The position numbers and the translations under genes are program-made. DNA of 64,000 nt, from the NCBI RefSeq assembly GCF_021155765.1, contig NC_060108.1, positions 26,437,025 to 26,501,024 of the forward strand, in the 5' to 3' direction. This document shows, in pieces, positions 3,549 to 59,759 of the stretch. Numbering within the stretch: the first letter of the stretch is position 1; every line of letters starts with the position of its first letter. A model generated the notes under the pieces. The model saw only the letters and a program-made list of their open reading frames with translations, was not told where the DNA came from and searched no databases. Source of the DNA: Diprion similis. Lineage: Eukaryota; Arthropoda; Insecta; Hymenoptera; Diprionidae.

Positions 3549-3597
3549 CCGCCATTGACGGACAAAATTTCAAACGACGAAGAATTCGAGTGCCACG

Positions 3598-6062: not shown

Positions 6063-6239
6063 GACTTATCGACTACTACTTTGAACCTGCGTGGCTGTTA
6101 CTTGTCCAATTACAGTTTCCACAGTCATTCCTACCACGGAGGTAAAAAAGCCATCAAATAAAAAAAAAAAAATTGTTTCGATCCACTAAATCCGGCAGTC
6201 ACGAGCGGCAAGGTGAATATCATGCTATTTCAACAATTT

Positions 6240-12480: not shown

Positions 12481-14507
12481 ATGCACTTAGCACTGCTAGT
12501 TGCACAACCAATCTGTTCAACAACCGGTAGCCACACGATCCAGCCTACAATAAAATCTGACGGAGAATCTTTTTATCATTTTTAAAGAGCCGAGGTTCCG
12601 CATCATCCGAGACGCCCGTCTGAAATCGAGGGCAGAACATCGGAATGGCTTGGACTGTACATGCTTTCCGTATCATCCGAGATTTCACATTTCAGAGAAT
12701 GAGAATTATTCAAACCAAGAAACGTCTTTGGAATGGCATCAAAATCTGGGAAACTTACTTCCGGTTCATACTATCGTTGATCATTTGTTGTTTTTTACTT
12801 TGGTATAAAATATCTTTCATGTTTACAGAGCATTTCAAAACTTGATTGGAGATAGTATTTTCCCTCAATTTCTGTAGTGACAGCGTATTACCGATATATT
12901 TTTGGAGTGGACACTGTCCAAAAGTCGTTCGACAAGCAGCCCCCCGTGATAAATATATATTTCCGATGATTGTATCAAAAGCTAGGTACGATTGAAAAAT
13001 TCAACCACCTGATAAGTACTGTTTTTGCACCAACTTCGAACCATGATCGTCAATGAATGTAATATCAATCAAAAAGATACGACACGAAAATATAATATAA
13101 TATAAATGTGAAATTTTTTTATGGTGGTCATACGAGTTGTTTAGGCAATCGAATTGATTTCTAAATAATTCAGACGCCTGTTTTTAACATTCTCATCTAT
13201 CTGCGCCTTTTTAAAAAGACTACTAGAATCATTATAGCGTGTGAATTATATGTATGGCTCAGTTAAGAAGTTATCCATAAGCGTCATTAAAAATGTTTGA
13301 CTCGTAACAAAAACCACTTGGTATGGAGAATCAATCTTTCCAGTATGGGACTAATGAAATCGTTTAGTGGTTAATGCGTATCACAGTTTCACAGCAAACG
13401 GATTCGGCGATCACGCTAATATTAAAAATATGCTCTCACACAGGCGCATGAAATAACGTGGAAGCTTTTCCGCCATACAAATATAAGTATTGATACTTAC
13501 CCTTGATTGAAGGGAAGTTTACCCGCTTCGTGGTTTTTTTCTTTAAATTATGCACGAGTATGCGTGCACAACATTCGTGTTTTCGATAAAATGGCACCAG
13601 TCATATCGGAATGGATCGGCAACTGTAAGATGCCGTGAATAAATTGGAAAGTAGAGAGAGGGTAGTTCACCCTCTGAAACACGCCAAACAATTTTGTGAC
13701 TTGATGAAGCGTCAACAACGAGCTCACAGATATATTTTGAATCAACAGACACATTTCAACAGACAGGAGACAACAGCTATTACAAAGAAATTCGTGTGAG
13801 GAGTAGTTCACCCTTTTGAACTTGCGTTTTTCCGAAAATGCAAAAACGGGTAAACTTCCATTTTTCTTCTCCTTCAAAACAGCACTGGTTTCATTCAATT
13901 CGATCCACCCTTTGGAATAAATGGGGCAAGAAAGAAAAGGTGAGGGTTGGCTCACCTTTCCATATTTTCGTTGTCTTTTTTTTAATGCGTATAGTGATCT
14001 TTTCACTCATCTACGTGAGAATCATTTTCGTTTTTGATTTACTGAAATCGGTCGATAGCTTATAGGTAGAACCAAACCGCCCCTTGACATGCCTTACTTC
14101 GGGGGGTCGTTTCAACTGTTTAAATTTTTTTTCCACTGATTGCAAGAAGTCTCTTCGTTTTCGATTTGTGCAATATACATGTAAAACGATTATATTTTTA
14201 GCTACAAGTGGTTATCGGGAACTTTGAAACAATTCACGAAGCGAGCTTTCCTTCGCGATAATATCTAACAAATCTACCGTCTTCGCAATATCTACGTTGT
14301 ACAGGATTGCATTTGTCAAAAAAAAGGGTAGCGCGCCTTGTAGAAAAGTATGAATTATGATTGTGATTTTACACGCGTGAAAATAACGACCTCTAATTGG
14401 TCAAATGCTTTAGGGCGGACTTAATGTCATGCAAATAACACGTTTTATTTGCGTTCCCCCACGGTGCAAATCGAAGATTGAATGCGAAAGACGGTCTAAG
14501 GCACTCG

Positions 14508-14515
14508 TATAAAAA
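14508..14515 (+). promoter_or_regulatory. TATA box of maltase 2
   Basis: TATAAAAA, 57 bases upstream of the start codon. It is unchanged from copy 1 although flanking promoter bases differ at about fifteen positions. Confidence 0.7.
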
Positions 14516-14564
14516 CCGCCAGTAACGGACAGAATTACAAACGAGGAAGAATTCGAGTGCCACG

Positions 14565-16818
14565 ATGTGTGCTCTGCAACTGCTCTTCTGCATCCTTGCT
14601 GCTACGGCATCGATTGATGCCATCACTTACAATGTCACCGTGCCAACAGAGTGGTGGCAAGAAAACATTGTTTACGAAGTGTGGGTCGAATCCTTCAAGG
14701 ACAGTGATGGCGATGGAAAAGGAGATTTGAATGGTAAGATACTTGATTTTCTTTACGATGAAAAGAATTTTTTTTTTTGCTGTTCAACTCGTAGACAAAC
14801 GTAGGGTGGTGAATACCGCCGAAGTATCAGGTTCGATATGTCTGACAATGCTCTGTAATAATTAAATAGGTATCAAGAGCAAATTGAGTCACTTTGTCGA
14901 CCTGGGCGTGACGTGCATCTGGCTTCCGCCCATATACGAGAGCCCCATGGTTGACAGTGGCTACGACATTTCCAATTTCACTAACGTGAACTCAGATTAT
15001 GGGACACTTGCGGATTTCGATGCACTGGTAACTGCGGCCCACGAATTGGGACTCAAGGTGATCATCGATTTTGTCCCCAATCACACGAGTGACGAACACG
15101 AATGGTTTGTCAAAGCAAAGCAGGGCATCGAACCATACTACAGTTACTACGTATGGAACAAAGGAGTTTATTACGGCGACTATCTCAGCTACCCAAATAA
15201 TTGGTTGGACGTCTTCAACGACGGCACCGTTTGGGAATGGATCGACGATGTCGAAGCTTATTACTTGCACCAGTTCAGCGTGCACGAAGTCGACCTTAAC
15301 TGGACCAATCCTTTGGTGATGGCGGAAATGAAGGTAAAACATACTTCCGTTTAAATAACATCTGTTGGTAAGAGGCAGCGAAAGTTCACCTGAAATTACA
15401 TGACTTTTCAGGACGTTCTTACGTTCTGGATGGATCGTGATGTGGACGGCTTCCGTGTCGACGCTGTGCCATACTATGTAGAGTCTTCTACTCTGGAGAA
15501 CGAAACTAGGTCCGACAATGATGTCGATTCAACCAATTATTTCTACCTGAACCACACCCAAACAAAGGATCAACCAGAAAATTATCCTATCGTACAAGAG
15601 TGGAAGGAGCACATAAACAATTACACAGCCGCAAAGGGTAACGACAAAGTGCGGTTCATCTGCACAGAAGGATACTCTGACATTGAGTACGTTATGAAAT
15701 GGTACGACTACGATGTTGACATCCCATTCAACTTTTGGTTCATCAAAGACGGAGATATCGCCAAGGACGCTGTTATAGATACAGCGGAGGACATCTATAA
15801 CATATTCATCAATTGGCTCGACAATATGCCTTCGGGTAAAACAGCTAATTGGGTGGTAAGTCATCGTTTCATTGCTCAACCTTAGATCCGTAAAGTTTGT
15901 ATGTTCAGCGAGTTTCACGATCCTTGTTTCTACGCAGTTGGGAAATCACGACATGAATCGAATCGCCACACGTGTCGGACTGTACCGAACTGATGGGCTT
16001 CACTTGTCCACACTTTTGCTGCCTGGTGTATTCACGATGTACAATGGCGATGAGCTCGGTATGACTAATACATATCTCACGTGGGAAGAAACTACCGATG
16101 TTCGAGCTTGCAGTACGACTAATACAACTTACACTCTGTACTCACGGGATCCCGTGCGCACACCTTACCTATGGGATAACACCACTTCTGCCGGTTAGTA
16201 TGCCCCGTTCTTCTTGAGAAAAGTCACTAACTTCACTAACTAAATGGCAAGACTTTATGCTCAAGTCTCCTGAAAATTCCTCTGAGAAATAGTATTCGGA
16301 TCGACAACTTTCAGGTTTCTCCACAAACTCTACTACCTTCCTCAAGGTCGACCCGGACTACGTGACAGTGAACCTTGCCGCTGAAAAAGAGGCCAATTTC
16401 AGCCATTATCAAAATATACAAAAAGCTATCGCTCTGCGTAACACCACCGTATGGCGAGAGGGAACAGTCGACATCGAGCTTATCGATGATCAGGTAGTAG
16501 CTATCGCTAGGCAAGCTGATGGCGAGGATTCAATAGTTGTGTTGATGAACTGGGAGAATTCCACCATGACGGTCGACTTGGATGATTACTTTGAAGATCT
16601 GCCCGATAATCTGGAACTTGTTATAGCTGATATGTACTCCGGATTGAACGACAAAGTTGGGTGTGTAGACAGTTTCTTGTTGCAGAGTGCAAGTAGCCTC
16701 GATTTTTGGTCGAAGCAATTTATGACTCTCCTTTTCTACTTCCAGAGATACGTACAGCAAGTCGAGTATTGAAATTCCCGAGCATGGCTCGATGGTACTC
16801 CTGGGTACAAGTTCGTAA
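14565..16818 (+). CDS. Alpha-glucosidase (maltase, GH13), copy 2
   Basis: Second secreted maltase with the same six-exon structure: 14565-14733, 14870-15333, 15412-15855, 15938-16193, 16315-16660 and 16746-16818, again 583 residues. Signal peptide, DFVPNH, GFRVDAV nucleophile, CTEGYSD acid/base and GNHD are identical to copy 1. The only protein difference I can see is one serine to alanine in the exon-3 stretch GDIxKDAV. Copy 2 also shares a G at 15609 with the broken third copy near 40 kb, while other variable exon-3 bases of that relic match copy 1, which suggests sequence exchange. Expression may differ from copy 1 because the proximal promoter is the most divergent part of the duplication. 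Confidence 0.93.
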
Positions 16819-17023
16819 GATCACCTCTGAATCAATCAGTAACATTTTGGCATAGCAAAAAATGGGCAAGAAACGTACCGAAACATCTGACAAAGTAACT
16901 GGACGAAACTCGTCGCATACCAGATTTATAATCCCTTGAGAATTACTAACCAACTAAATTTTTGGGCTGGTACCTGCGAAAAGTATTCGACGTTTACTCC
17001 GAGATGTAATACAATAACTACAA

Positions 17024-17029
17024 AATAAA
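17024..17029 (+). other. Polyadenylation signal, maltase 2
   Basis: AATAAA at the same distance from the stop codon as in maltase 1. Confidence 0.65.
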
Positions 17030-18657
17030 GACTTATCGACTACTACTTTGAACCTGCGTGGCTGTTACTTGTCCAATTACAGTTTCCACAGTCATTCCTA
17101 CCACGGAGGTAAAAAAGCCATCAAATAAAAAAAAAAAATTGTTTCGATCCACTAAATCCGGCAGTCACGAGCGGCAAGGTGAATATCATGCTATTTCAAC
17201 AATTTGTAAGTTGCACGAACTAAATGAAAAATACTTCTGCTATATGAGATATTATTCAATAGATATACGAGGATATACGGTCCATGAAATATTATGTTGA
17301 ATGACCTGTGTTACATAGTCAATGTGAAAAACAATTCCTCAAACTAAATATCCTCCTTGTTGATTCAACGAATGTTTGATCGATGCAAGATCATATTCTG
17401 ACGGTTTCACAGAATCTCAGTTAACGGAACTGAATATTGAGTTGGAAACATCACAGCGAGGTACAAGCAGCTGAACGTTCAGTTCAGTATAGTCATACAG
17501 TGTTCCAATCGTAAAGAGAAACAACTCATTTGTCGACTGCAGTCCCGTAACGTAGAAATAAACAAATTCTCAGGTTATAAGATAAAATAATGTTTTATTA
17601 AACATACTGTAAATTTCGATGGCTGAGATTGAATAGAATGAGAGGAAATCCTGCAATGATTCGAAATGCTTCTGATCAAAAACAAAATTGAAATTTCATC
17701 TTAATTACGACGATCTCGAGGCATTGGCTCAAAAGTAACTGAAAATATTTAGAACCCGTAAGCAAATCTGTTTAGTCGATTAGGCTGATTATTTTACAGA
17801 AATATTTTCTAACGCTGGCTTTGAAATTTCCCTTGTTTTTCGGAAAACTCTGTTAAACGCATTTCCATTCGTGTGGTGCTCAGCTATTCCCCTGTACCAA
17901 ATTCACTTGCTGCTTAATAAAAATGTCGCCACTAAGTTTCGCTGCCCCGCAAAAACAAGGTAACAATAAAAAATACAAATTGTCTCTTTCTCAGGATTGA
18001 CAGCACCGATTTATTTCAAAACGACTCACTTTGTTAAGATAGTCAAGAGTTTTTATAATCACAAGCTCGAGCATGAAGATGAATCAACTAAAAATCTGTC
18101 CCTTGCGTCTATGAAAACTCTTGACAATCTCAATAACATATTGAATTTCCAATCAAATCGGTTTTGTTAATCCTGAAAAAAAATGATTTTTTTCACCGAT
18201 AGGTTAAGGTCTGATACTTTTGAGATCGTAGTAATTTTATTCGGGCTGTGCAGCGTCCCAAAAACTCGGCAAAAGTAGTTGGGGCCGGTACAGGTTTGTA
18301 TGGGACCACGTTTTTTGGTGAACCCGCAATGGCCGGGAAACTGGGAATCTTCGCAAAACCCGAAATCTTTGGGCGCCAGAAATTTTTGAGAAACTCGGAA
18401 CGTGGGTAACTTAACTGACCTGATATTGATAATATTGGACAAATACTAAATACTAAATACTAATAGTAAACAGTATATCTTTTTCCTTTTATCATGAAAA
18501 AGCAGAGTTTGAAAAGCACTTTCAAAGTAGACGTGAAACAGCCATGCTTGCAGACTACTGTTGGTGCTTTCAGAGGGATACCCCGATCACTTGACTGCAA
18601 GTGAAAAGGCGATCGTTCAAAAAAGTACAAGTTTTTTGATGACAAATGAAGTTTTGT

Positions 18658-21330
18658 GTCGCTTATTTATATAATTTTTAGAAAATTATTAATTTCTCTC
18701 CGGTATGAAACCTGAAATGATGTTACACTCTCATTTATAAACCTGAATTGACTATAAGGTGAGTAATCATAATTACATAGTGTAAACCCGGTGAAAAATC
18801 GCGTGTTGTTCATGTCCGCCTTTTTGGTGACAAGTATGAAGCGAAGACTATTTTTTTGTGCGTCAAATTTTCATTACTTCAAGCACATCCCAATTTTAAT
18901 TATAATCGTTTCTTTTCCCATATAAGTTTCAAATCAGTCATATAAGTAGAATAGCGTTACAGTTCGGATGCAAATAAGCACTGCTGTGTAATGAAAGAAG
19001 ATTCGCCAATATTGATCGTATGACGTGATGCAAAATTTTACGCGCTGTCGTGTGGAAATGATACGTGTACCAGGTAACATGAGTTGATGATGTGGAACAT
19101 TTTGGAAATTGATTCAGATTGTTCAGATTCAGATTCTAGTCGTTATTTCTGCATGACGATTCACACAGCTGTTTAAAGAAACGGAATATTCTAGTAAATT
19201 CGACAGCATTGCGTAATCCATCATTGGCCATAGACTGAGGCCATGACAATTTCAAATGAGCACGATTTAGAAATGATTTTGTGGTCTGCAAATAAAGAAT
19301 ATAGGGAAAGGGGGGGCACGACGGGACTCTCAGCAAAATTTTCAAAAAAATAGATAATTTATTTATATTGCAATGTTGTCAGAGGTTTTGCTGAATATGT
19401 GTTAAATCTAAGTTTGCAGCATTCTTTTGGGACGGAATTTTGTTTTTTTTCTTACAGATTTTCCGAAAACGATATTTTAGGTAAAGGCCATGTGCTCTGG
19501 AACATGAATTTTTGCTGTCATATATATCGATGGATAAATAATCAAATATTTATTCAATAAGGGTAAAAGTAATGGAAGCAGAGTGATGCGGAAAAGATTT
19601 TTTCTCGATGATGAATGTGTTCGAGATAGATCAAAGCAGCTTGTGGGTGCCCGGTGCTCAAAAGTCACCAAAAATTATTAGCGCTTTAGGGGGTCCGTCG
19701 CACCCCAAGTACTCCTAAATCTTTGTTGCAGTCTCCATGCTCACGTACCTAACGAAAGCAATATGTATCTTGATGAATTTCCGTTGAACCAATGTCTGTT
19801 CTTTTCACTTTAGTTTTAATGCCCAGAAGCGAGATGAGAACTATTCTCTTGCCTAAGTTTCAACGCATCATCTTGAGTCGTCATCAATATTCCAACGAGA
19901 CGTAGACGTAAAAAATCTTCATTTCGGAACTTCATATCAATAACCTTGCCGAGACTGTCCTCTTCATACTTTTATGAAAACTTAATCGGGGGGTTGTAAA
20001 TATGTTAAAGAGTTGCCTATGCAATCATTTAAACAACTGCTACAACAATAACAAGAAGAATTAAATTTTTTCACTCGATAGCCTTTCCTGGAATTTTAAC
20101 CTGAGACTTTCGAGATGACATTCTTTTTTCGAATTAATTGGTGAGATTGATGTTTGACCAACAGCCACTGCCAGATACCTCTCGTAGGTAATCGTAGCGA
20201 TGGAATGTTGTTAATTGCAAATCTTTATTACCTGCATCAGTGCCGTATTTGTACTCATGATTGTCGATTCATAACAAGAATATTGCAGATGTGAACATGA
20301 ATTGGGTTGTCATCAATCAAACGGTTGCTACTAAATGGTTTACAACGGATCGCACTTGAAATTATAAAATTTCCAGACTACTTCGTCAAAAATGTCTAAT
20401 CTTCTATTGGAAATAAATCGGTTCAGATTTATCGCAAAGTCTCTTTCACTTGTGCCTACGTATACGATGAATGGTATTCACAACTCGGAAATTCTATAAT
20501 CACCCGGCGATTCGGTCGATATTTTTTATCAATTCACCAAAGCAGTACTTCTATACAACTTTTCCAAACTTTCAAAGTCTTGTGATACGCTTTATTCCTT
20601 GCGACGAAATACACCTTCATTAAAAAGGGAGAAACACTTGTTATAAAAAATCTTGCGAGCCTTCACATTTGCATAGATTCGTGTGGCGGTACAACCTTGT
20701 GAACCATTATACTAGACTGATACGGCCAATCTCCATGCTGTGCGGAAATTTGTCTTTGTAAACTATATTTCACATTTACCTTGATATCTTTTGTTAAGAA
20801 GAAAAAATTAGGAATTTTTTGACAATTAGAGACGAAAAAGTTGCGAAACGCAAGTATTTCTTGAAAGTTTTTTGGTAATGTAAAGAAGGTTTCATTTATA
20901 TCATTTCCTCATTACGTAGCGGTAGATTAAGGGCGCTTATTTTTTTTACGGTACTGATCTACTTTTCTACGTTGAATTCCGAATATCAATTATGGGATAA
21001 GCACATACAGGTTTTCAAGTATCCTGAATCTTGATTATCGAAAATTTTATGCATCCACGCCAGAATGAATCAAAGCATGTTCTTAACATTTGATTGAAAA
21101 AATTTTTCCACACGATGTATGAGAAAGGCAGATAAAATTATGAAGAAGTTTCGTAAAATATTATTCACAACGAAAGAACATTCGAGCAGAACGCGGAGAG
21201 GGGCTCGATTCCTAAAACAGCGATGGCGGTGGCAAGAGTGAAATTTTTGTATCGTTTCTCCGACCATTTGTGTACATATAACGTTGATCATAATAATTCT
21301 ATGTTCTGTTAATTTATGCATTCGGAGCAT
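18658..21330. other. Intergenic, no gene seen
   Basis: AT-rich sequence without supported genes. The only repeat noted is the 20599-20645 copy of the junction repeat. Short open frames at 19136-19345 and 21070-21363 (minus) lack any domain or splice context. Confidence 0.5.
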
Positions 21331-21628: not shown

Positions 21629-23288
21629 ATGATGATCCTATTTCAACCGACGTGGATATTGCCGATAATATTGGCTTGCACTGGTTGCTGTTTGGCGGAT
21701 CTGGACGTATTGTATACGTGGAAGTACGTAGATTACGTCTGGGAGAACGACACTCAGAAAGAAGCTGCGATCGCTTCTGGTCAATGCGATGCTACAAAAA
21801 TCGCTATTAACGATGTTCAACAACTTCCAGGTATCATTCTGTCATAGTTCATCATTGAAATTCAATCTATTCCTTACAACCCGACCTGTTCAAGACATTG
21901 GTCACATGAATTTTTGTAATTTCTTAGACGGTCGGGTGCTGGTAACCACTCCGAAGTATTTCGACATCCCCGCGAGTTTGTCCGTGATTTCGAATACGTC
22001 AGGTGATGGCGGTCCGCTACTGGAGCCCTATCCCGACTGGAGTTGGCATACGACAGAACGAGGTAGCTCCGCCATTATCAGCGTCAACAGAGTGAAGGTG
22101 AGTATCGGACAACGGCAGGAAACAACATACTGCAATTGCTTCACAGCTTCATATTTTTGGCCCTCCGTAGGTAGATAAGTGCGACAGACTTTGGGTCGTT
22201 GACTCCGGGAAAATAGGAAACGAGCAAGTATCGCCAGCTCGTATTCTGAGATTCAACCCCGCTACGGACGAGTTAGTCGAAAGCATTGAGATTCCAGACG
22301 AATTGTCCCACAATCCCAATGACGCGAGCAAAGGAAAACTCGAACTACAAGCGGTCGAAACGGAGGGGGATTGTTGTGAAAAGACTTGGGTATGTGAACC
22401 ACTAGTCCGCAGTACTGGGATTGGTGCGAATTTTGTAAATCTAAACTTTTCGTAAGCTTCGATTAAATACGAATCACTCGTGGGTTACAGCTGTACATTG
22501 CAGATCTGGAGGGATGGGGTCTCCTCATCTACAACGGATCTGACATATGGCGCATTAACAACGATAAACTCTTTGCCCCACAAGAGCCGTACACCACCTT
22601 CTCTCTCAATAATGAGAATGTAACGTTAACTACTGGACTATCCAGTATGCTGATCCTGCCCGATGGATTCTTAAGAGAAAAATCGACAATCTTCAAGCCC
22701 ATGGCTTCGGAAGTCGGGTACGGTGGCTCCGTTGACGATCTACACAACTCTTTCACGGGGAACGACGTCAGGTACTACAAGACCAACTTCACCGCCCCTA
22801 GCCAAGAACTTGCGAGAGATATATCCTCGGATGGTATTCTGATAGCCGGTTTTCCCACCGTCTCGATCCTTGCCTGCTGGAATATACAGTGGCCCTTGTA
22901 CGATGCCAACGTGGTAAGTAACCGTGATTGATGTTGCAGCAATCCTGGGGATCAAATTTACTTCGACACCACGTCAAACAGCATGATTATTGCTACCCAA
23001 ATTAAATTTCTTCAGGTAACCCTACAAACGAGTGACGAGTATTTACAATTCGTCAGTGGTGTAAAAATTACCGAAGGAATTCAAAACGGGGTCGAAGGTG
23101 AGAATGTGTGGGTTGCGTCGATCCATTTACAGCAGTTCATCTCGGGCACCCTGGACATCACTGAAGATAATTATTTCATCCTCGGCGGAAATGTGAAAAC
23201 CCTTGTGAACGGCACCAATTGTCAAACTCGGCCACACCCGTTGGTCGACGATCTCAACGACAAGTTCTTTTTCTCTTACAATCCATAA
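21629..23288 (+). CDS. Yellow/major royal jelly protein-like (MRJPL) gene 1
   Basis: Secreted protein of the Yellow/MRJP family (one beta-propeller-like MRJP domain). Five coding exons: 21629-21830, 21928-22097, 22171-22389, 22491-22913 and 23016-23288, all with GT-AG introns and matching phases, giving 428 residues, typical of the family. Residues 1-23 form a signal peptide. Family blocks in order: LYTWKYVDYVW, DGRVLVTTP, GGPLLEPYPDWSWH, VDKCDRLWVVDSGKIGNEQ, LYIADLEGWGLLIYNGSDIW, a CWN near the end of exon 4, and LQFVSGVKITEG with FISGTLDITEDNYFIL in exon 5. Exons 3 and 4 match the lengths of the 25235 gene (219 and 423 bases). MRJPs serve as nutritive proteins in bees; the role of MRJPLs elsewhere is unclear. 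Two adjacent ATGs exist and the first was chosen. Confidence 0.92.
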
Positions 23289-25234: not shown

Positions 25235-26814
25235 ATGCATCGCCTCCTACTTGTTCTAACCATCGCCAATTGTGCAGTAGCTGCCAAACTAAACGTGATT
25301 TACCAATGGAAATACATCGACTACGTCTGGAACAGCAAAGAACATCGACAATGGGCAATCGCTGAAGGGAGATACGACTACACGAAGATCTTCACGATCG
25401 ACGTTCAGAAGGCTCCAGGTACGGACGTGAACCGCGAGTCTACAAGACTATTTCGAAAGTTATTTTGATCGACGCGATCGTTACCTGAAACTCTTTGTTG
25501 AACCTCAATGTTGTCCTCGTAGATCAACGAGTCTTTGTGACAACGCCAGCATTCAATGATCACGGAGTTCCGGCCACCCTTTCGACGATATCTTCACGTC
25601 AAGGTCCCGGTGGTCCGCTATTGAAGCCTTATCCAAATTGGTCCTGGCACATCCCTGGGAACTGCAACGGCATCACAAGCGTCTGGAGAGTGGCTGTGAG
25701 TTGTGACCAACGGGTTCTGGCCGATGTTATATCACGTTGATGATCACGTATTACTTTTTGTGCTCTTTTTCCGCAGGTCGACGAATGCGATAGACTCTGG
25801 GTCCTTGACAGCGGGAAAATTGGCAGTAACCAGGTCTGTCCAGCCCAACTTTTGGTATTTGATTCGAGAACCGACATACTGCAGCAACGGATCACTATTC
25901 CGAATTACCTCTCGCGTGATCCCACAAACCAGACTCTGGGGCTACTAATTACGCCTGTTGTTGAGACGGAGGACATCTACTGTCGCCGGGCATGGGTCAG
26001 TAGTCTACTGATTCTTTAGCAAAACTGAATCTATTCACGACTAAAGCCAGTGCACCGTCAAACGTGATGTTTCAAGGTTTACATAGCGGACGTAGATGGC
26101 GGGGGTCTCATAATCTGGGACGGATCGTGGATTTGGCGCTTAGACGACGAAGTATTCAAGGCGGATCCGACGGCCTCGACGTACACCATCGCTGGGGAGA
26201 ATTTCACTGTTGCGGACGGAATTTTTGGACTCGCGGTGTCACCCCGGAACTCGCGGCATCCCCGCCGTTTATTTTTCAAGCCGTTGGCCTCTCTCAAGGA
26301 ATACTCCTACGCTGTTGACGATCTGCACAGGCTGGGGTCCAGATTCAAGTCCGTTAAGTACGTCGCTTCCAACTATCAATTACCCAGTCAGGCTACCGCA
26401 CAAGCATTTTCACGGGAAGGTATCCTGTTCTTCGGACTGACGAAAGAAATAGCAATAGCGTGCTGGAACATGAATGACCCGATGGACGACGAGCACGTGG
26501 TAAGTAGAGGATTCATGATAGAATTTTTGCTTCGCATGGAAATTTTGAATTCCAGTACTTAGTTTGAGCCATTTTTCCAGGTGATCGTGGCTCAGAACAA
26601 CGACACTTTGCAATTCGCCAGTGGAATCAAGGTTACAAAACGCAGGCATGATGTGCTTAAAGAGGACCTTTGGGTCTCGACAAACCGTTTCCAAAAAATA
26701 TTTACTGGCACTCTGAACTACAGTGAAATCAACTTCAGAATCCTCAGCGCTCCAATTAAAGTCCTCGTTAAGGATTCCGAATGTCAACTCCCCCGATTCC
26801 GAAGCTACTCGTAG
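25235..26814 (+). CDS. MRJP-like gene 2
   Basis: Yellow/MRJP-family secreted protein of 410 residues. Coding exons: 25235-25418, 25523-25695, 25777-25995, 26077-26499 and 26581-26814. The ATG at 25235 was preferred over the in-frame ATG at 25190 because it begins a clean signal peptide (MHRLLLVLTIANCAVAA) and because a ttccag acceptor at 25217 suggests the upstream bases are leader intron. Family blocks: VIYQWKYIDYVW, DQRVFVTTP, GGPLLKPYPNWSWH, VDECDRLWVLDSGKIGSNQVC, GGGLIIWDGSWIW, LFFKPLASLKEYSYAVDDL, CWNMNDP, LQFASGIKVTK and FTGTLNYSEINFRIL; the last two are very MRJP-like. Exon 4 is locally GC-rich relative to its surroundings. Its last exon is the closest relative I see to the relic at 9520-9733. 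Confidence 0.92.
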
Positions 26815-32684: not shown

Positions 32685-34224
32685 ATGACAATCCCGTCCA
32701 GATCATTTCGTATACTGACAATCGTATTGTCATGTGTTGGCTCGTTTTTGGCAGCGGAACTCAAAACTATCCATGAATGGAAGTACATAGAATACGCAAG
32801 CGAAGACTCACTCGTGAATCAGACGTTCAAAGTTGCCGAAGAATACAATTACACGAAAATCATACCACTTGATTTCCAGAAAACCTCGGGTACAATCTGC
32901 AGCAAACATATAATCACAAAATAATCATCAGTTGCTCCCACAGCTAAAAATTTTTGTTTCCAGATAATAGAGTTCTGGTTACAACACCCAGACTTACCCA
33001 CACAGCGCCAAGTTTGTCAATTGTTTCCGCTCAGAACGGGGATGGTGGTCCGTTGTTGGAACCCTATCCAAGTTGGGATTGGCATAAGACAGGAAGTTGT
33101 GGCGACGAAATAATAACAAGCGTGTCTCGTCTGCACGTGAGTGCCGAATCATCCCACGTCGCCTCCTAAAACTAATTTAATATTTTTCCAGACTGACATT
33201 TGCGACAGGCTATGGCTCGTCGATTCCGGGAAGATAGGAAACGAGCAGGTATGTTCAGCTCGGCTGTTCGCCTTCAACACGACAACCGACCAGGTGATCC
33301 ATCGCGTTGATATTCCAAATGAGTTGACCCACAATTCCGTAAATTCGAGCAAGGGTCGACTTGAGATGCAGATCGTCGAGACGAAGGGAGACTCGTGCGA
33401 AGAGACTTGGGTTAGTCACAGGCTGTTAATTCGAAATCGTTCGAACTGAGAATTCGATTCTCACAAAAAAATTCTCCTTAGGTTTACATTGCGGACCCGG
33501 AGGGCTATGGGCTTATTATTTGGGACGGTTCGGACATGTGGCGTCTGGAAAACGACGACGTTTATGCCCCGGACTCGTCAGCTACGACGTTCAGCGTTGC
33601 CGGAGAGAACGTGACCCTGGAACTCGGGACTTCCATTTTGAAAATATTGCCTCCGGGATTCGTTGACGAGGATTATCTTTTTGTAAGACCATTGTCCTCC
33701 TACTCAGTCCACGCAGTGAGCATCCAGAGTTTGCACAATTCGAAGAACAGCAGTGTGACTTACTACAAGGGCAGCATTACGATGCCATCGCAAGAGCTTT
33801 TCAGCCTCTTTTCCAAGTACGGGGTCCTCATGGGCGCCTTCACCTCGAGTTTGGCAGTGTTTTGCTGGAATCTGGCAAATCCTCTGTCGACAGAGTACGT
33901 GGTGAGTAGAACCCCGATGAGAATTTAATGGTTCGTATTACAGCCAATTTACAACTGTTTTAGGCTACCGTGATAGAGAACGACGAGGCTCTTCAATTTA
34001 CGAGTGCTGCTAAAATTTTTGAAGGGAATGAGCCCGGATTCGAGTCTGAAGAGTACTGGATGATGACCGATCGGTACCAAAAATTCGCACTGGGTACCAT
34101 GGACTTTGACGATATCAATTTCAGAATCCTGTCACTCAATATCGCTGAAGCCATCAACGGCACTGTGTGTATGCCGAGCTCACACAATATGACTAGCATT
34201 GAGGATAAAATTTTGATTGACTAG
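32685..34224 (+). CDS. MRJP-like gene 3
   Basis: Yellow/MRJP-family secreted protein of 425 residues. Coding exons: 32685-32889, 32964-33136, 33192-33410, 33482-33901 and 33964-34224, all GT-AG and in phase. Signal peptide at residues 1-24. Family blocks: TIHEWKYIEYAS, DNRVLVTTP, GGPLLEPYPSWDWH, TDICDRLWLVDSGKIGNEQVC, VYIADPEGYGLIIWDGSDMW, LFVRPLSSYSVHAV, CWNLANPLSTEYV, LQFTSAAKIFEG and ALGTMDFDDINFRIL. The IGNEQV run and domain order are shared with MRJP-like gene 1. Many NxS/T sites suggest N-glycosylation. This is the parent of the truncated copy at 11290-12440, whose first coding exon has the same length. A leader intron of roughly 580 bases is predicted. Confidence 0.92.
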
Positions 34225-39917: not shown

Positions 39918-40557
39918 ATACCGAGTGAAGGTAAAACATACTTTAGTTTGAGTAACATCTTTCTGTAAGAAGCAGCGCAAACTCACCTGAAATTTTATTA
40001 CTTTTCCTTACATTCTTACGTTCTGGATTGATCTTGATGTAGACGATTCCGTGTCGACGCTGCGCTGTACAATGTAGAGTTTTCTACTCTGGAGAACGAA
40101 ACCAGGTCCGACAAAGATGTCGATTCAACCAATTATTTCTACCTGAACCACACCCAAACAAAGGATCAACCAGAAAATTATCCTCTCGTACAAGAGTGGA
40201 AGGAGCACATAAACAATTACACAGCCGCAAAGGGTAACGACAAGGTGCGGTTCATCTGCACAGAAGGATACTCTGACATTGAGTACGTTATGAAATGGTA
40301 CGACTACGATGTTGACATCCCATTCAACTTTTGGTTCATCAAAGACGGAGATATCTCCAAGGACGCTGTTATAGATACAGCGGAGGACATCTACAACATA
40401 TTCATCAATTGGCTCGACAATATGCTTTCGGGTAAAACAGCTAATTGGGTGGTAAGTCATCGTTTCATTGCTCAAGCTTCTTTCCCTCAAGTTTGTATGT
40501 TCAGTGAGTTTCACGATCCGCGTTTCATCGCAACTGGGAAATCACCACATGAATCGC
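39918..40557 (+). pseudogene. Maltase relic (intron 2 to start of exon 4)
   Basis: Third copy of the maltase gene, reduced to the end of exon 2 (gtgaaggtaaaac), intron 2, exon 3, intron 3 and about 25 bases of exon 4. It is dead: the exon-3 acceptor AG is lost (ttttcag has become ttttcct), a one-base deletion disrupts the GFRVDAV catalytic block near 40048, the GNHD histidine-aspartate region is altered, and exons 1, 5 and 6 are missing. The 3' three-quarters of exon 3 (about 40105-40450) is almost identical to the live genes, while both sides are clearly diverged. That pattern points to gene conversion. Confidence 0.9.
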
Positions 40558-41036
40558 ATAAACTTTGGTTGGCTATGCATATAACAATCTTGAATTACTA
40601 CCGACCGTGGTACCATCGCGTCGTGCTAGCGTGAACAAATGTAAGACGGGTCACGTCGCTTAGGCGCCAAATCGATGAATAATCAGGTTCCAAGTCAGTC
40701 TGGCTACAACTGAGAAAGATTTTCTGCAGCTTTCCTTGTCTCGTACTGTAAAAATACAGGTATTTCAACTGATCGTTACGAGACAGCTGCAGACGCGTAA
40801 GCCCAATTCTATATATAATCTTACACACTCGAATGAAGATTTAATCTTTCACAGTAACAAATTATTTCTTACAAAGTGTGGATTCTCATATTCAAAGTAA
40901 ATCGATTCTCTATTTCTCCCTACTTGATGCCCAATCTTTCAGAATCACCACCGTCCTCGATATTTGTCCTCTTGATAAAAGACAGTGTACGAAAAGCAGC
41001 GGTAAGTTTCAACTAGTCAGAGTCTATCGAGTGTGA
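40558..41036. other. Intergenic, no gene seen
   Basis: Short spacer between the maltase relic and a yellow relic; nothing recognised. Confidence 0.5.
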
Positions 41037-46820: not shown

Positions 46821-48258
46821 CAATTGGCAAACAAATTGCCACTACATAACAGACACCCGTACAAAAAAGAGGATCCGCCAGCGTCTAAAAGAAATTTATA
46901 AAAAGTTCTTCAGCTCGATTCTTTGCATTAAATACTTCTATATGGGGCATTCCAGTCGAACTCGACCCACGTTTGACCTCATGTTTTCGGATTCAGCTCT
47001 CAATTTATTTCGAAATTCTATCAGCCCACAATAAGACTCTCAATATTTTCCGATTTTTTTAAATCAAACGGTTTCGAGCTGTGATTTTTTTTTTTTTTAA
47101 TTTATACACCTTTTTTAAAAAATTACACTTTTCAAGAGGACGTAGCGCGAAAACGTCAGGTTTGTTTGACAGTAAAATTTGACTAAAACAAAGTACTCAG
47201 TTCAATTAAAAGCTTCATAAGAAAAATAGTGAATAAAATTTACAACCTCCCCAAAAGATGATTTTTTTCTTCTTGAAGCAAAAAAAAAAACGATTTTTCG
47301 TCAAGTGCATCATGATTAATTTTGGACGAATTTTTTTCATAAAAAGGTGCATTCATCACAAACATTGGAAGATGCGGAAAATTATACCCCGATTTTTAGT
47401 TGTTGAGTTAAAACGATTTCAAGTCAATTTGGGAGAGTCATCGGGAAACACGACAATGTTTTGTAAAAGAATGAATAACCCGGATGACGTTAGAAAGGTT
47501 TTTCCCGTTTATTTTATCTGATGATATATATGAGGAAATTAGAGTAACCTGTTTCCGTTGTCTTGTGATACATGTATAAATAAATTAAAATAATCTTTTT
47601 TCCGCCATCCGAGGCGAGTTATTCATTCTTTTACGAAACACTGTCGACTTTCGAATTCCGATGAATCTTCCGAAATGATTTGAAATCGTTATAACTCTTC
47701 AACGAATAGTCGGGGCATAATGTTCCGGATCTTGAAATGTTTTTAATGAATGCACCCTTTTATAAAAAATATTCGTGACACATTATTCATGACAATCTTG
47801 ACGGAAAATCTTTTTTTTCCTTTAAGAAAAATCACCTTTGGGGAGGTTTTTTTTTGTGAAACTTTGAACTGAACTGAGTATTTTGTTTCAGTGAAATTTT
47901 ACTCTCCATTTTCGAGTTTTTGCGCTACGTTCTCTCGAAAAATATCATTTTTAAAAAAGGCGATTTAAAAAAAAAATCATTACTCGAAACTGTTTGATTT
48001 AAAAAATTTGAAACAGGCGAGATTCTTATTGTGGGCTGATAGAATTTCGAAAAAATTAAGAGTTGAATCCGGAAACATGAGGTAAAAAGTGGTTCGAGTT
48101 CGGCTGGAATGCCCCATAATATAAATATTGCGAAGTCTTGAATGGAAAGAATCGAGCTAAGGAACGTTTTATCAATTTCTTTTAGACGCTGACGGATCCT
48201 CTTTTTTGTCCGAGTGTCTGTTATGTAGTTGCCATTTGCCATTTGCCATTTGCAAATG
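46821..48258. repeat. 1.4-kb imperfect palindrome (foldback element)
   Basis: The left arm (46821 to about 47480) is matched by the reverse complement of the right arm (about 47605 to 48258). Shared blocks include tacataacagacac at one end, gaggatcc, ggggcattcc, tattgtgggctgatag and aagaatgaataac near the centre. The arms differ by substitutions and small indels. A central spacer of about 120 bases remains. The outer ends carry repeated ttgcca/tggcaa motifs. No transposase is present, so it looks like a non-autonomous foldback or long-inverted-repeat transposon. Confidence 0.85.
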
Positions 48259-49506: not shown

Positions 49507-51669
49507 ATGGCCAACCTGATTCCATGGCTTATGTCGATGTCCCTGATCGGGGCCCAGAACTTCGGGAACTTACCGGGGCCCGAACCAGTTTCGCAAGACC
49601 TGTTACCTCCTCTGGAAAGCTCAGGGTACTACGGTCCTCCGGTAAGGACTTTGTTAGTTACAAAATTATTATTCTGGTTTCTTTGTCTTGTATATTTTTT
49701 GAGCAAGCGTCAAAAGGTCATGCTTGAGTCATACTTTTGCTCCTTCAAGCCAGTGTGGAGTTGAATTAACGCCAGGAATTATCGTCAGCAACAAGAATAT
49801 CAAATAACTTAACATAAAGGTGGACAATTAATTACAGGAGTGAAAATAATCTTGGCTTGTTTTAGAGTCAAGTTAACACGTACGCTGTGCAACAAGTGCC
49901 AATTCCCGCTCCAAGAAGCATCATCGACGTCCGGACGGAGGAGTATAGTACTGCGCACAAATTCATTCCGCCAGAAAACAACGGGTACAATGACGAGTAC
50001 AGTGGACCAGCCATGGAGCAGGTGACATTTTCACTTTTTTAAAACAGAAAGAATCAGTGACGAGCAGTGTGTTGGTGGTCACGTTACTTAAGTTATACTA
50101 GTGCAAACCGGTTATGATGAACCCGGAAGTACGGTAACGTGAGAATCTGAAAAGGTTGATATATGGTTTCAGAATTCAGCATTTTGAAACTCAGCTGAAT
50201 ACCGAGAAACAAAGAGCTCGTAATTTATGAGCAGCACATCTCCATCTTGTTCTTACTTAGCTGCAGGCAATTTTGACAACGCAATTTAAAGAATGAAAGT
50301 CAAACTTTCGTTTTCTCCGCAATATATTTACCCTCTACTTTTTTCAAACTAACTCTTGACACTTGTTTATATATTTGGCAGATTTATTCATGGAGAACCG
50401 TTGATTTCGAATTCGACAGCGAGTCGTCGAGGCAGCGTGCTATCGATGCTGGTCATTATAACCTGGAAAACTCTCTGCCTCTAGGAATTGAGGTATGGAA
50501 GGATAAAATATTCTTGACTCTACCGAGGTGGAAGAAAGGCATCCCTGCCACCCTCGCTACCGTTCCGCGATATCCAAGAGAGAAAAGCCCAAAATTGCGC
50601 CCATATCCAAACTGGGCCTGGCACGACCCAGGTAGAGTTGTAGAAAGAAAAACGTTTAACGCCAAAACATTAGCTGGCATTCGCTTGGAAATTGTTCATA
50701 ACAATACAAGGATATAAATTTGTTGCAGAAAATTGCGTTGGGTTAACGTCTGTCTTCCGGGTTCAAGTGGACCAGTGCGATCGATTGTGGGTCTTGGATT
50801 CGGGACAAACGAACATCATGTCGGATCCGCAGCAAGTCTGTCCCCCTGAATTATTCATCTTCGATTTAAAGACTGACAGACTACTGAAAAAGTACACTTT
50901 GCCGAAGAAGTATATAAAGCAAGATTCTCTATATTCGAACCTTGCGGTAGACATCCGTGCCGGAGAGTGCGATCACGCGTTCGCCTATCTCGCCGACGTC
51001 TGGCGATTCGGAATAGTCGTCTATGACCTCTTCAAGGACAAATCCTTCCGAATCGAGCACCACTTTTTCTACCCAGACCCGCTTTCATCGAGATACGAAC
51101 TTCACGGTCTTCACTTTCAATGGACCGACGGGATCTTCGGGCTCTCTCTGAGTCCCGTCGACGTGAATAACGACCGCACACTCTTCTTTCATCCGATGTC
51201 AAGCTTCCGGGAATTCGCGGTCTCGACATCGGTGCTCAGGAACGAAAAAATCGCTGAAGATAATCCGGAGATGTTCATTCCGATCGGTAAGCCGAGAGCC
51301 AAGTATTGCGGACACTCTTCAGGATCCGCCATGGATAGAAACGGCGTGATGTTCTTCAACATGGTGACAAGAGACTCCATATGGTGCTGGGACTCCAGGA
51401 AGGAATACATACCACAGAATTTGGGAGTCATTGGTCAGAGCAACGTCTCCCTGGTATTCCCAAATGATATTAAAGTGGATCACGAACTGGATCAGAGCGT
51501 CTGGGTGTTGTCGAACAAGCTTCCAATGTACTTGTACGGGAAACTCGAGCCCCATGACATCAAGTACAGACTGCTTCGAGCGAACGTAAAGGAGGCTATA
51601 AAAAATACCATCTGCGATCCCAACTACGTCGTACCGCCTTCGGAGCAAAGCTACGATGAGACTTGCTGA
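49507..51669 (+). CDS. Yellow-family protein, yellow-h-like
   Basis: Secreted Yellow-family protein of 493 residues. Coding exons: 49507-49641, 49866-50021, 50382-50631 and 50729-51669, with matching phases. Residues 1-17 form a signal peptide. Residues 18-97 are a proline-rich, low-complexity extension absent from the MRJPL genes. The MRJP/Yellow domain follows: IYSWRTVDFEF, LPLGIEVWKDKIFLTLPRWK, GIPATLATVPR, RPYPNWAWHD, VDQCDRLWVLDSGQ, GLSLSP, CWDSRKEY and YRLLRANVKEAI. The long N-terminal extension, the PLGIEVW block and a large last exon fit yellow-h, which borders the royal jelly protein cluster in honeybee. Other yellow subfamilies cannot be excluded. It ends with AATAAA at 51953 and converges on the giant minus-strand gene. 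Confidence 0.88.
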
Positions 51670-52185: not shown

Positions 52186-55100
52186 TCATGTCTCTCTGCT
52201 TCCCTTACTGTTTTTCATTGGTCTAGGTATTGCGCTTTTCTTTGGCACCGCGTCTTTCTTTGGTTCAGCATCACACTTACTGCTACTCGTTGAGGCTGAA
52301 GCTAAGTGGCTACCATTTGTGTCAGAACTAACAACACTTGTTTGTTGTTTCAAACTCGTTTCGTCTTCACCAAACTCGGATTTCATCGATTCGCTCGACC
52401 GTTTATCAGTCACTTTACTGGACTTGGGTAAAGAATTTATGTCGCTCTCAAGCTGCTCGGGAAACTCTTCAAGGAATGTGTGATTGGAGATGGAAATTTC
52501 CCGGGAAAGTAACTCGGATGCATCGGTAGTATTTCGGAACGACAAACTCGCAAAACTGTCGTAGCTATGAAAAGCTGAACCAGGAGAGTCGAGTTTCTCA
52601 AGAAAATTTGTGAACTTGACCTGCTCAATCTTAGTACTGTTCACTACATCTTCGTGAGAGTGGACTTCACTGATTCCTGCATCTGAATATTCTTCCCTGA
52701 AACTCTGCAAGTGCAAAAGCTTTACTGTACTGTCTAAATCCTTAGTTGGAGGAACATCAAGCGATAAGTCGATTCTGGAAGAATTCGATGTCCCTTTCAA
52801 ATATATTTCATCTGAAGAATCAAACGGCGGGATAGCACCCGGAGATCCTCCTCCAGGCATATTTCGGTCAGATTCTGAAGCCACGTTAATCAGGGGATGA
52901 ACATTTAGTTGGCTAAGAACATCTAATCGATTGTTTACATGATTAAATTCCTCACTTTCCGGAGTAGTCACTGGCTTCAGATTATTTCCTACGGTAAGGA
53001 GTTTGTTAAACAAATGCAAAAGATCTTTGTAGACTTCAACGTTGTACTCGGTTCCAATGCCCACATGTCTTAGACTAATTCTAGACCTTGGCTCTGCCGT
53101 TTCAACTGGCACATTGTCTGAAGTTTCAGATATTGATTCGACTGATTCCGTGAGGTGAGCGATGAGTTTATCAATAGGTGTGTCATCAGACCTGTCCAAA
53201 ATATCCACGAACTTCTTCTGGCACTCTTCTTTCATTCGGTTTTGTTTTTGAACCTCTGCTTCCGGATCCGCAGCAATTTTCGTAGGACTAGAAACCGAAA
53301 TGAAACTTCCAATCTTCGAATCAGATGGAGAAGGAATCTGAGGTTCGACTCCGCTGAATTGGTGATTCAAAATTTGCTGCATCACGTCTTTCAACTTATC
53401 TTCAATCCTCGTAGAGTAAATTGGTGACATACGATTCAGTTCACTTTTGGTGGGAAGAATTTTCGTAACTAATTCATGCGATTTTTCATCTCGCGATAAA
53501 TCTTTCGCACTTTGATGAGCACCGATCACTTCAGGCAGAACTGACTCTGCAAGTGAAGGGATTTCTGGTTCAACCACAACTAACGAGCTAGGCATTTCTG
53601 AAGATTGTTGAGTTTCGATCATTTCATTTCGATATAAATGACTTTTTGATTCACTATTACAAAGCAGCAAGTTGTTCATCAAATCCAGAGCATTTTCTGG
53701 TAAAACAGTTTCTCCAATACGATTCCGAGATGAGCTACTCAGGCAAATATCTTTAGGGAGGTCAGTGACGTGCGGGTGTTGAGATGATTCGAATGAGGGA
53801 AGAATGTCAGAAGCCTTCAACGAATCAGAAAAAACATCAGGTTGTTTAATATCCCATGACAAACTCTGGCTGGTCGCCGATTCAACGGAACTGGGCGTAA
53901 GAGGGCGTGAAACCGTGAAATTTCCGTCGCTGTCAGAATCCATCAGATAACCCGAAGACAGCGCTCTACCTCTCTGAGGTACGTATCTCGCACTAAAAAA
54001 ATCCAAATTCTTTTGCGCAATCAGTTTATCAACTTTGATCACTCTTCTGGAAGGCTCGGGGATAGTCACAACCTTTTTTGCCCGACTTTTCCGTTTACTT
54101 TTGGCCAGCTGGAGCCTCGTAGATGACGGAATCATCCGATCCCAACTCGAGAAACGGTTCATTTTGTGCCTTGACCCGTTCTGGGAACTTCTTAATCTTG
54201 ATCCAGGGTCCTGAATAGCCTGGAGACCATCGATACCTGGTAGAGTGTTGGATTCTTCTTCAAGATTTCCAGAAATCTTAGTCGTGCAGTCTTTATTAAA
54301 CTCTTTTCTTTGGACGTTAGAGTTATTCGATTGTTGTGATGTCTTAGTGGTGGACGACGTCGACTGTCCAGGCTCACTAGATGAGAAAATCCCCGAAGAA
54401 CATTCAGTGATCATTGCGTAATTCACGACAAGTTGCATGAGATTATGCAACTTTTGTAGCTCTCCGTTTTCTGGAAACCGCAAATTCGTTACCGAGGTAA
54501 CTTTGCCATCTATATCAACTGGCGTTTCGCACTTTTGAACTTGATCTTCATGGCTATTTCCATGAACGTGAAACTCTTCAAAAACAGTTTTTATTTTCAT
54601 ATTCACGCATTCTGCAGACTCAACATTTCTCAAGATTTTCTCCGACATTGCGTCATCAGGTCCGATAAAAAATTTATCTTCTGGTACGTTTCTAGATAAG
54701 CTCTGCTCATCAGTCGCTATCCACAATTCCGGAATGTTCGCTTCTACATCCACGTCTTTAGAATGAGGTGGATTAAAATCGTTTGGCTCGGTATGCCCTG
54801 AGGTTAAAAACGCGGTCTCAACTGTCATATCTTCACTGGCAGCTTCAAGTTTTTTCACCTTCGTTCCCTTTTGCAAGAAAACAAATCGGTTCATAGAGTT
54901 GTTTTGTTCTACAGCCTGATAAAACATGGAATTAATGAGATTTCGTCTAAAATTTGTTCTTCTCAGCAACTCAGAAGGCGTTGATGGAAGAATTTCTGAT
55001 TCCGTTTCCAAAATATTTGCCAGAAGTTTCTTCCCCTCGTCGTTATACGATTCATCAATTTTCTCAGCGGAAGAGACTCTGCTGTCTGGATTACTCTCAG

Positions 55101-58100
55101 TATCAATAACCACTTGATGATTTGAACGATGGTTTATCACCTCTTGATCCTCCTTTCGACCAAAATCATTACTCTCCGTTGAAGTCTTTGCTTCCAAATG
55201 TTCATTCTTCAGCGCGTGTGATGTCCTTGGCACTGCTTGTTCTTGTGAAATTCGATTTTGATCAACGGAATTATTCTGTGTACTCTGAGTCGATGTTTTA
55301 TGTGACTCTCCGCAGTCATCACTAACGTTGATAATTTTTTCAGCTGTATTTTTGGTTAGCTGAAAATTGGTAAGCATTTGTAAAGCTGTTACAAATTCCG
55401 GGCCTCGCAAATTTCCGAGTAGACCCTCATCGAGGTTAGCACGAAACTGAGAATTTGGATCCTCACTGCGAGTAAACGTTTTACAGCTAGGAAGTTGATC
55501 AAAAATTTTCACTATTAAATTCTGCATTTCTCTCCCCCCGGAATTGAAGTGGTTAAGAATACGTTGGCAGGACGTAACGTCAAACTCAAACTGTGATTCC
55601 TCATTGTCAGCAAACGGCCTCATTCTTAACGAGGTTCCCTGTATTGTGTCGGGAGATTCATGAATGACATCCTTTAGTGCCAATCGCTCTCGTTCGCAAC
55701 TTCTTCTCGGTGTAGATCCTATGCGAAGAGATCGTTCCGAATTATGTCGCCTTGAAGAAGTCGGCAACTTTTTAGGTATCGATAAGCCCTTCAATACGGA
55801 TTTAGAATAATCTTGCATACCCGTCATCTGAGGAATCGAAACATCTGGACTCGTGTCATTTAATTCATCTGAAGCAACTTCAAGTCTCAATGATGCTGCA
55901 TTCACTTCAGCCAACTTTAGCTGCACAGAAGTAATTATTTTGTCCAACAAGGATTCTTGTTCATCGTCAACTCTGGGTATCCCAAAATCGGCAGCTCGGA
56001 ATACGGTCTCCTGGTTATCTGAAACTATTGTGTTGGCAACCAAAAGTCGATCGTCATTCGGTGACCGTTTCACAAAGGCTTGCATAGTGTCGGCTGAGAC
56101 ATTGAACCCCAAAAATTGTCTGGATGATGATCTCCGCTGCAATGAGCAGAGGGGATCGACAAGATTATAAAGATCTGCATCAGAGATTTCCGGTATTTCG
56201 ATTTCTCTTGCTGGTTGACTGAAAAATTCGTTTCTATACCCTCTCAACGCTGCTGCCTTCACAATTTCGCCTATAGTGATAGAAATGTTATTGAATATTG
56301 GATAAAATTCATTCGCTCTTTCGCCCAGATGAAATCCTCTCTCAGAGCTCTCGCTATGGGCGAAAGCACTCTGTAGCATTTTTTCTGTAGTCTCATACAT
56401 GATATCTTGCTGTTCCAAGTTCCTATGATCCCTTGGCACGATTGTGTAATTCAACTCGTTTCGTTCTCGTTGAAAGATTTCGTTGCTATCCAACCACCCA
56501 CATGACCAATCGATACGTTTTATGGCTTCTCTAACGTTCTCCAGTCCATTTTTCTTCTCGAACTGTACATAGTACTCGTTGTCCTCAATTCGACGAGGAA
56601 TTTCTTCAGGGGTTGTTAAAACTTCGACGATTGGTGACCGGAATTCGTCGGCTATCGAAATCTCCGAAGACCCAGCAGTAGCGGTATCGACACCTCGTTT
56701 TGGGACAAACGATTTGATCGTTGTAATAGACACGTCCTTACTAGTCGTAGGTTTGTCATCGACATATCGTTCAAAAAAATAAACTTCGATTTCCTGATCC
56801 CTGAAGTTTGCTTTTGCGGTAGTTCTGTCCAAGTCCCGTCCTTTTTGTGAACCCTCGATTCTTTTGCACGATTTCGAACTGACATCAAACGCATTTCCTC
56901 CCCTGTCAGATTTACTGTACTTCGAATGTTGCTTCCTCGCTGCTTTATTGTGAATTTTAAGCGTTTTCGACTCCGTCTTCAGCCGTCCACCACCGCTGTA
57001 CATTTCGACGAAGTCTTTCGCCGCGCGTTTTCCATGTAGAATGGAGGGAGCGATTGGTTTCGACCTTGTGAACCTTGCATAAGCATTATCAATCTTCCAC
57101 ATCAATTCCCTCTCGGGAGTTTCAATTTCAGGTACCGAAGGGACGTACAGGATTTGGTTAGCGTGACTCCGACGTGTACTAGCAGGTGAAACCGAAGGTT
57201 CTGCATCCTCTCGATCTGAGCAAGAAATCACCGTTGACTGCTTCGATAACCGTAATCTAGTCCGAGGATCGTGGGCATCATCTTGACGGTACACAATGTT
57301 GGGTCTTTCATGCTGCTTTCGAGCATCCATTTCTCTCTTATATTTGAAGATAGTTTTTTCGTTATAAGCTTTGAGTGCTTCGATCGCTTTTAATTCCCAC
57401 TCTTTGGAGAATTTCCGAATTTTACCAGACCCCAATGAACTGGTCGGGGATTGCTGATCCATCCAATCTCTACAGCGGCTATCCTTTCGTGATGATTTTA
57501 CACCAGCTACGGGTTCATTCTCTCGAGCAGAAAGAACTGTGCTTTTATCAATTTCTATCATTTTCCGTGATTCCGAATTTGAATGGACTGCAGCACTTGG
57601 CTGGTCGGATTTCGGCAAACGATTTATCAAACTCCGTGAGACGGAATTTTTTTTTGTCATTATAGGTGAAATTTTCGAAGATCGAGGAAATTTTTCGTTG
57701 TCTTTTGTCGGACTCATTGGACCAGAAGAGATACTTTCATCTCCGAGCAATGACAAACTGTAGATTTTTTCTTCTGAATTTTCCCATTCAATCTTGAGAG
57801 ACACTCTCGAAGTAGCTGATGCTTTATGATCATGGTGACCCTGCGGCAGAATGGTCGATTTCGTGATGTCTTTTTCAAAGTCTTCTTCAAGCTCTGTTGT
57901 TGGATTATGAATCATGTGAGAATATGGCGAATAGCTTGATATTAAAAACGAGTCAGTGGGGACATCTTCTTGTGATGGAATCGATGATTTGTTTTTTGAA
58001 ACGGGCGTGGAGTCAGAGTTTTCGACACCTGAGATGGACTTCTTTTCCAAAACATGACTCGCTTTTAGAGCTGAAATATCAGCGTTGATCCCAAAGCTAA

Positions 58101-59759
58101 TTGAACTCGATGCTAAAAATGTATGGTTCCCTGCCGCAGAGGAACGAGGAAACTTGCTATCTTCACGCTCTGAGATCATTGTTTCGCAGCGATGATCACT
58201 TTGAGAATTGACTATTTCCTTTTCATGCCCACAACTCAGTCGAAGTCTCCAGTCAATTTCTTTGAAAAGACATTTCAAACTCTGCTCTGCATTGTCCCTC
58301 GATTTTTTATCTTCAAGGCAAATCCTATGCAGTTTAAATGGTTTAAATTCATCATAGAGCATCTTTTTTATTTCCGAAACAAAGTTTATCTCTTTTAGAT
58401 TCTCCCAGACGATACGATCTTTGTGTACAATGGCCTGGATGCAGGATGTAGGAAGACATGAATCATGAGTGTGGTAACCAAATGCCGTTGTTACTGTGTT
58501 TGATTTCAATTGATATTTTGCAACAATTTCTTCAGCCTTTCCATTTTCCGAATTGCCTTCATCCTGGTTATTGCTGCCATCTTCTTTTTCACGCGATTTT
58601 CTTTCGTCGTGACGATCCTGACCGCAGCAATCGGACGATTTTCCCCCACTCGATCGTTCTCTCTCAATATCGACTGATTCCCCAGCAATTCCTGACGCCA
58701 CAATTACGTGCGTTGATTCAGCCTCAGATGCAGAACTGCCGAAATCTTGATCATCTTCTTTAGAACACATCGTTTCTTCACAACAGATACATCTTCGCGA
58801 ACTTTGAATTAGTTCGTTTTTTAACCCAGAAATTGAATGCTCAACTTGCGTTGCCGCGGTGCGTGGTTCAACGGCTTCCTTCGAAACAGACAACGTCGAC
58901 GGCTTCCTTTCGGCCGCATTGAGGTCAGTTGATGGTTTTTTGTGAAGCTTTATAGTAGTGGCCTCAACTTCTTCGTGGGTGAGCCCGAGGATCTTCCTGG
59001 TTTTTTCGGCTGGAGTAAGATTCGCATCGTCGATGATATGCAAGCGCGAGTCATCATCAACGTCATCAGAGTCCTGACTTTCGATGCTCAACAAAGTGGT
59101 CAGAGACTTTGAGATCTTATGATCCGAAGGTATTTCCCAGTTCTTCTCACCAAAGAATTCATTGTACGTCAGGCAGCTGTAATTCATTCCTGATACGTCG
59201 TTAGGATCTGATGTTCTTGGTATTTTGCCGTCCAAAGATTTCGAAGCCCTGCGACGTTGGGCTAACGTCAGACTCCGACGGGGCTTGATCATTGGGAAAA
59301 CAGGAACACCATCTAACTCAGCGTAGTAAAGTTCAAAGTAATAAGATCTCAGCCGACGCCATAAGTATATCGAAGGCACTGCCGATGGAAAAATATAATG
59401 TGAATAAAAGGAGGAACTGATCACAAGTTATAATCTCTGAAGTCGAAAATTCTTTAGGATCGAAATGTGTACTATTCAAGAATATAAAATAACAGGATGG
59501 ATTCACTCACTCATCGATATTATTCTAACAATGAGAAACTCCACAGCCAATAACCCGCACGAGTGCAATATCCAACAAAGCAACAGGCCAGCAATTGTAC
59601 AAATTACATCCGAAACGATGTTCTTCATCATTTGGAGGTACAGCCAAGGCAACATTAGACGATGTCGATCTCCAGTAAAAACTGGGTACAGCATGACGAT
59701 GTAAAAGATGAGGTGAAGATGGGTTGTATAGTTTCGGAACAACACGACACACGAAACTA
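52186..59759 (-). CDS. Giant membrane-anchored disordered protein (5' incomplete)
   Basis: Minus-strand gene with at least two coding exons. Exon A (59759-59511) has acceptor gccattgcag and donor GTGAGT. It encodes about 83 residues with three hydrophobic helices (around LIFYIVMLYPVF, DVICTIAGLLLCWIL and LLAVEFLIVRII) and a short LPWLYLQMM loop. It splices in phase to exon B (59378-52186), a single 7.2-kb open exon. The visible protein is 2,479 residues. Exon B begins with a basic juxtamembrane stretch (YLWRRLRSYYFELYY), then becomes serine- and charge-rich with no domain I recognise. It has a cysteine patch (RRCICCEETMCSKED) about 210 residues in and a PKKDAVPKKSAIPRP tail. I infer a small multi-helix membrane head with a very long cytoplasmic tail. 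The 5' exons were not identified; they may lie between 59760 and 60200 or further upstream. Confidence 0.75.

Follow-up and report, generated by a model that had tools for sequence, protein, structure and literature searches.

Our study revealed a giant coding exon, referred to here as exon B, on the minus strand of the 64-kb window (the whole stretch of DNA that was analysed), where positions 59427-52186 hold one uninterrupted open frame of 2,413 codons from stop to stop. This frame is a real coding exon of a protein-coding gene, because its length far exceeds the maximum of 266 codons reached in 40 random windows, which were generated by a first-order Markov model with the dinucleotide transitions of the sequence and in which the longest frame averaged 166.6 codons. 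The comparison bears out the huge single exon described by the first-pass annotation. The best explanation that we can offer is that exon B encodes the giant cytosolic, disordered tail of a multi-span membrane protein, the head of which would be completed by a hydrophobic exon directly upstream (exon A); this is put forward tentatively, at just short of an even chance. The remaining five frames over the same stretch contain 82 to 226 stops per frame, each frame being 2,412-2,413 codons long, and it is reasonable to suppose that a 7.2-kb frame that has been kept open is under selection. Scoring exon B by frame favoured the frame of the tail in 12 of 12 segments, which adds little weight, as these scores penalise the stops in the other frames. 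The features discussed below are listed in Table 1.

Table 1. Positions of the observed and proposed features, numbered from the first letter of the window
Feature	Positions	Strand	Description
Exon A (putative membrane exon)	59511..59759	-	Three hydrophobic segments, LPWL in a loop; 5' acceptor (GCAG before TA) one of several possible
Proposed intron	59379..59510	-	132 bp; GTGAGT...cggcAG, phase 1; from sequence and splice scores
Exon B	52186..59378	-	7,193 nt; 2,396 codons beyond the codon shared across the junction; stop TGA 52188-52186; serine-rich tail, predicted to be disordered
Start of exon B, reading PSIYLWRRLRSYYFELYYAELDGVPVFPM	59290..59376	-	Ends in internal ATG 59292-59290, an alternative start in a rival reading
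Cysteine cluster CICCEETMC	58765..58791	-	Tail otherwise cysteine-poor; pattern defined only after being seen
Basic sequence KKSAIPRPM of SxIP type, close to the C-terminus	52216..52242	-	Fits the nine-residue rule; compared with shuffles
MRJP-domain frames	22467-22928, 26068-26559, 33482-33925, 50674-51669		Pfam
Alpha-amylase-domain frame	3899-4384		Pfam

The proposed link between the two exons is a GT-AG join that is in phase. The 3' end of exon A reads ATATCGATGA followed by GTGAGT, the long exon reads TGCCTTCG immediately after cggcag, and the predicted product runs ...LLAVEFLIVRIISM-MPSIYLWRRLRSYYFELYYAELDG (...IISM-MPSIYLWRRLRSYYFELYYAELDG). The reading frame is thus continuous from exon A into exon B, as had been claimed at first sight, and such in-phase joining is expected by accident in one of three cases. 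The splice sites themselves are ordinary: using hand-entered splice matrices, and with the tested site itself included in each count, 13 of the 299 GT sites scored equal to or higher than the donor, as did 7 of the 247 AG sites for the acceptor. The join is a prediction that is plausible, not outstanding. Codon scores for exon A (-0.029) and the junction piece (-0.221) both lie inside the range of 167 non-coding control frames (mean -0.118, best 0.099), and the piece of the frame internal to the intron scored -0.433. This scoring discriminates poorly between coding and non-coding sequence, giving a mean of only 0.002 even for the tail, which had been included in the training set at half weight.

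The view of exon A as part of a membrane protein was upheld for its hydropathy and, by one method of counting, for its three segments, but not by its codon score, which falls in the non-coding range, nor by a second method of counting. Mean hydropathy was 1.18 over 82 residues, a value equalled by one of 62 control frames of at least 82 codons from outside the listed genes. A left-to-right count gave three hydrophobic segments, matched by 1 to 4 of the same 62 frames depending on the setting, whereas a greedy count gave one, with 35, 31 and 4 of 70 control frames (at least 80 codons) having zero, one and two segments, respectively. A single-sequence AlphaFold model of exon A had a mean pLDDT of 57.4, too poor for structure searching, and the N-terminal exons were not pinned down, as 9,264 exon chains satisfy loose filters. 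Beyond the last hydrophobic segment the charge is +8 over 30 residues, and under the positive-inside rule, which is established, this basic run would place the tail in the cytosol. Fusion of exon B to a membrane head is, on balance, somewhat likelier to be true than false, and we infer the splice, the membrane insertion and the topology jointly as moderately probable.

Under this preferred reading, the gene would be a minus-strand insect gene lying beside yellow/MRJP genes, with one or more first exons preceding exon A. Exon A would contribute the last membrane segments and would be spliced in phase to exon B, so that the protein would carry a long, disordered tail in the cytosol. Anchored at the membrane, this tail would most likely serve as a flexible scaffold or tether, and growing microtubule ends may dock, by way of EB proteins, at its basic C-terminus of SxIP type.

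The main competitor to a membrane protein with a giant tail is a large disordered protein in its own right, soluble and encoded mainly by exon B (a scaffold, cytoskeletal or nuclear protein), a serious possibility to which we give somewhat less than an even chance. Its translation would begin either from the internal ATG (59292; MIKPRRSL...) or from one that ends an otherwise untranslated exon (ATGA joined to TGCCT), and both candidate ATGs are present. Exon A would either be untranslated or belong to another small gene ending ...IISMSE, in keeping with its own frame, which when read past the donor stops 8 nt on, after two more codons. The codon scores, which lend no backing to exon A or to the junction piece, and the lack of a fixed first exon also agree with an independent protein. 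Against it, the frame is open from the ATG back through a basic, tyrosine-rich stretch at the start of the tail to the in-phase acceptor, and the exon directly upstream is very hydrophobic, to a degree seen in just one of the 62 control frames. The same stop two codons beyond the donor of exon A would also suit a single gene in which the two exons are joined in some transcripts only, giving a short membrane isoform (...IISMSE) and a long tailed isoform; a short read-through to a stop is expected by chance, however, and we consider two such isoforms improbable.

It is extremely improbable that the open frame arose by chance or belongs to a mobile element, and not to a host gene. The window does contain repeats and a duplicated block, but the 2,413 codons stand against a chance maximum of 266, exon B has no second copy within the 64 kb, and neither a transposon or viral family nor a viral or phage relative was matched. 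Self-BLAST found no internal repeats in the tail, the only tandem arrays there are two-copy arrays with periods of 8-12, and Rfam and tRNA searches gave no match.

The first-pass annotation had described the tail as disordered and had asked for a disorder prediction; on a simple residue scale, which is crude and was the only one applied, 92 % of the frame exceeds the disorder threshold, in agreement with that description. Serine makes up 13.5 % of the residues of the frame. Single-sequence AlphaFold modelling of frame residues 951-1180 gave a pLDDT of 34.4, again too poor for structure searching. The cysteine cluster could, as a guess, be a lipidation or metal site; its pattern exceeds shuffles, but post hoc, and none of the remaining short motifs tallied against shuffles was in excess. 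LC8 and NLS-like patterns were not found in the tail.

The proposed contact with microtubules was examined using the nine-residue SxIP rule, which is stated in PMC3649978 as [ST]x[IL]P with at least one K/R in X1-X4 and no D/E in X1-X6. Seven [ST]x[IL]P sites were observed in the frame against 2.9 expected, and two of the seven, KKSAIPRPM and KSTILPQGH, satisfy the full rule, with local charges per 24 residues of +6 and -2, respectively. In shuffles, rule-fitting sites averaged 0.535, with at least one in 42 % and two or more in 10 %. A rule-fitting site within the last 30 residues occurred in 0.7 % of shuffles, and when only the last 40 residues were shuffled, the core motif came back in 4.7 % of cases; as the motif was spotted before being tested, these figures describe a post hoc lead. 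In the same paper, colocalization with EB1 is reported to be lacking for three SxIP-bearing proteins that were tested. The SxIP-type sequence is a weak, post hoc hint of binding to microtubule ends, and a link of the C-terminus of the tail to those ends through this motif is unlikely. STIM1 and Theileria p104, described in PMC3649978 as membrane-attached, EB1-binding SxIP proteins, resemble the present protein in its possible membrane attachment and in having SxIP in a disordered, basic C-terminal region. They differ in that sequence kinship with them is not demonstrated here, that membrane attachment and EB binding are putative for the present protein, and that its tail is mostly not basic. 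The more far-reaching idea, that a small multi-span protein gained a giant tail and came to connect membrane and microtubules, as a linker that is confined to its lineage and resembles no described protein, seems to us more doubtful still.

Family searches were made for both head and tail. A profile search did not support the resemblance of the head to DUF4728 that had been suggested by the first-pass annotation: none of the four head versions that were searched matched the PF15860 model (91 positions; its cut-off is 26.7 bits) with an E of 10 or less, and exon A alone gave no match at E up to 1. The queries miss part of the head at its N-terminus and the HMMER filters discard weak matches, so that this null result lowers the DUF4728 claim and distant kinship is still conceivable. 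DUF4728 arthropod membrane proteins have an LPWL-like loop as well as multiple hydrophobic segments, and may be alike in these two traits; the protein proposed here differs from them in lacking a match to the model and in its 2,396-residue tail. Pfam gave no match for exon A or for the whole frame. The joined head matched only Stevor (E 2.1), as did three longer heads (E 0.96 and 0.73). Ten pieces of the tail gave no family at the cut-off, with weak matches to RUS6_N (0.03), ANAPC4_WD40 (0.12), DUF6382 (0.25), SpoIVA_C (1.1) and YqfQ (4.6), and the earlier description of exon B as free of any recognizable domain thus holds for Pfam, over the whole frame and over the ten pieces. PDB sequences gave no match to the tail at E up to 1 and a single chance match to the joined head (mitochondrial ribosomal S9, E 1).

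No relative of the tail was confirmed in viral, phage and prokaryote collections, where 1 viral and 11 prokaryote pattern stretches failed tblastn, and none of exon A was confirmed in viral contigs, where 25 pattern stretches failed. A control search of the viral contigs with a neighbouring MRJP protein was likewise empty (3 pattern stretches failed tblastn), and the viral, phage and prokaryote null results are therefore uninformative on insect orthologues. Among the literature matches listed, there was no paper on the gene. Large unnamed disordered insect proteins exist; exon B is like them in its long serine-rich tail without a recognized domain, and it differs in the possible membrane head acquired through an in-phase splice.

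The surrounding window contains four MRJP-domain frames, some of which may be yellow genes. This setting points to DNA of an insect, probably a hymenopteran. It also contains a tandem duplication of approximately 6.2 kb (1523-7700 and 12490-18659, 96.0 % identity), each copy of which bears an alpha-glucosidase-like gene; the alpha-amylase domain was found for the frame in the first copy. A third, partial copy of this gene lies at 39926-40556 (92-93 % identity over 632 bp) and is possibly a gene fragment; the frame at 40038-40631 had no Pfam match at 0.001. Separately, approximately 1.4 kb at 46821-48252 aligns with the reverse complement of itself at 75.9 %, forming a large imperfect palindrome that is perhaps a folded-back mobile element.

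In summary, yellow/MRJP loci of this kind are well studied in bees, and orthologues of the gene should therefore be readily identified and compared. Should the join between the exons be false, exon B would represent another large unnamed disordered insect protein. If it is real, the gene would encode a compact membrane protein with a disordered tail of 2,400 residues carried on a single exon, and it would be a good case in which to ask how extensions of this kind originate and how selection keeps them open.
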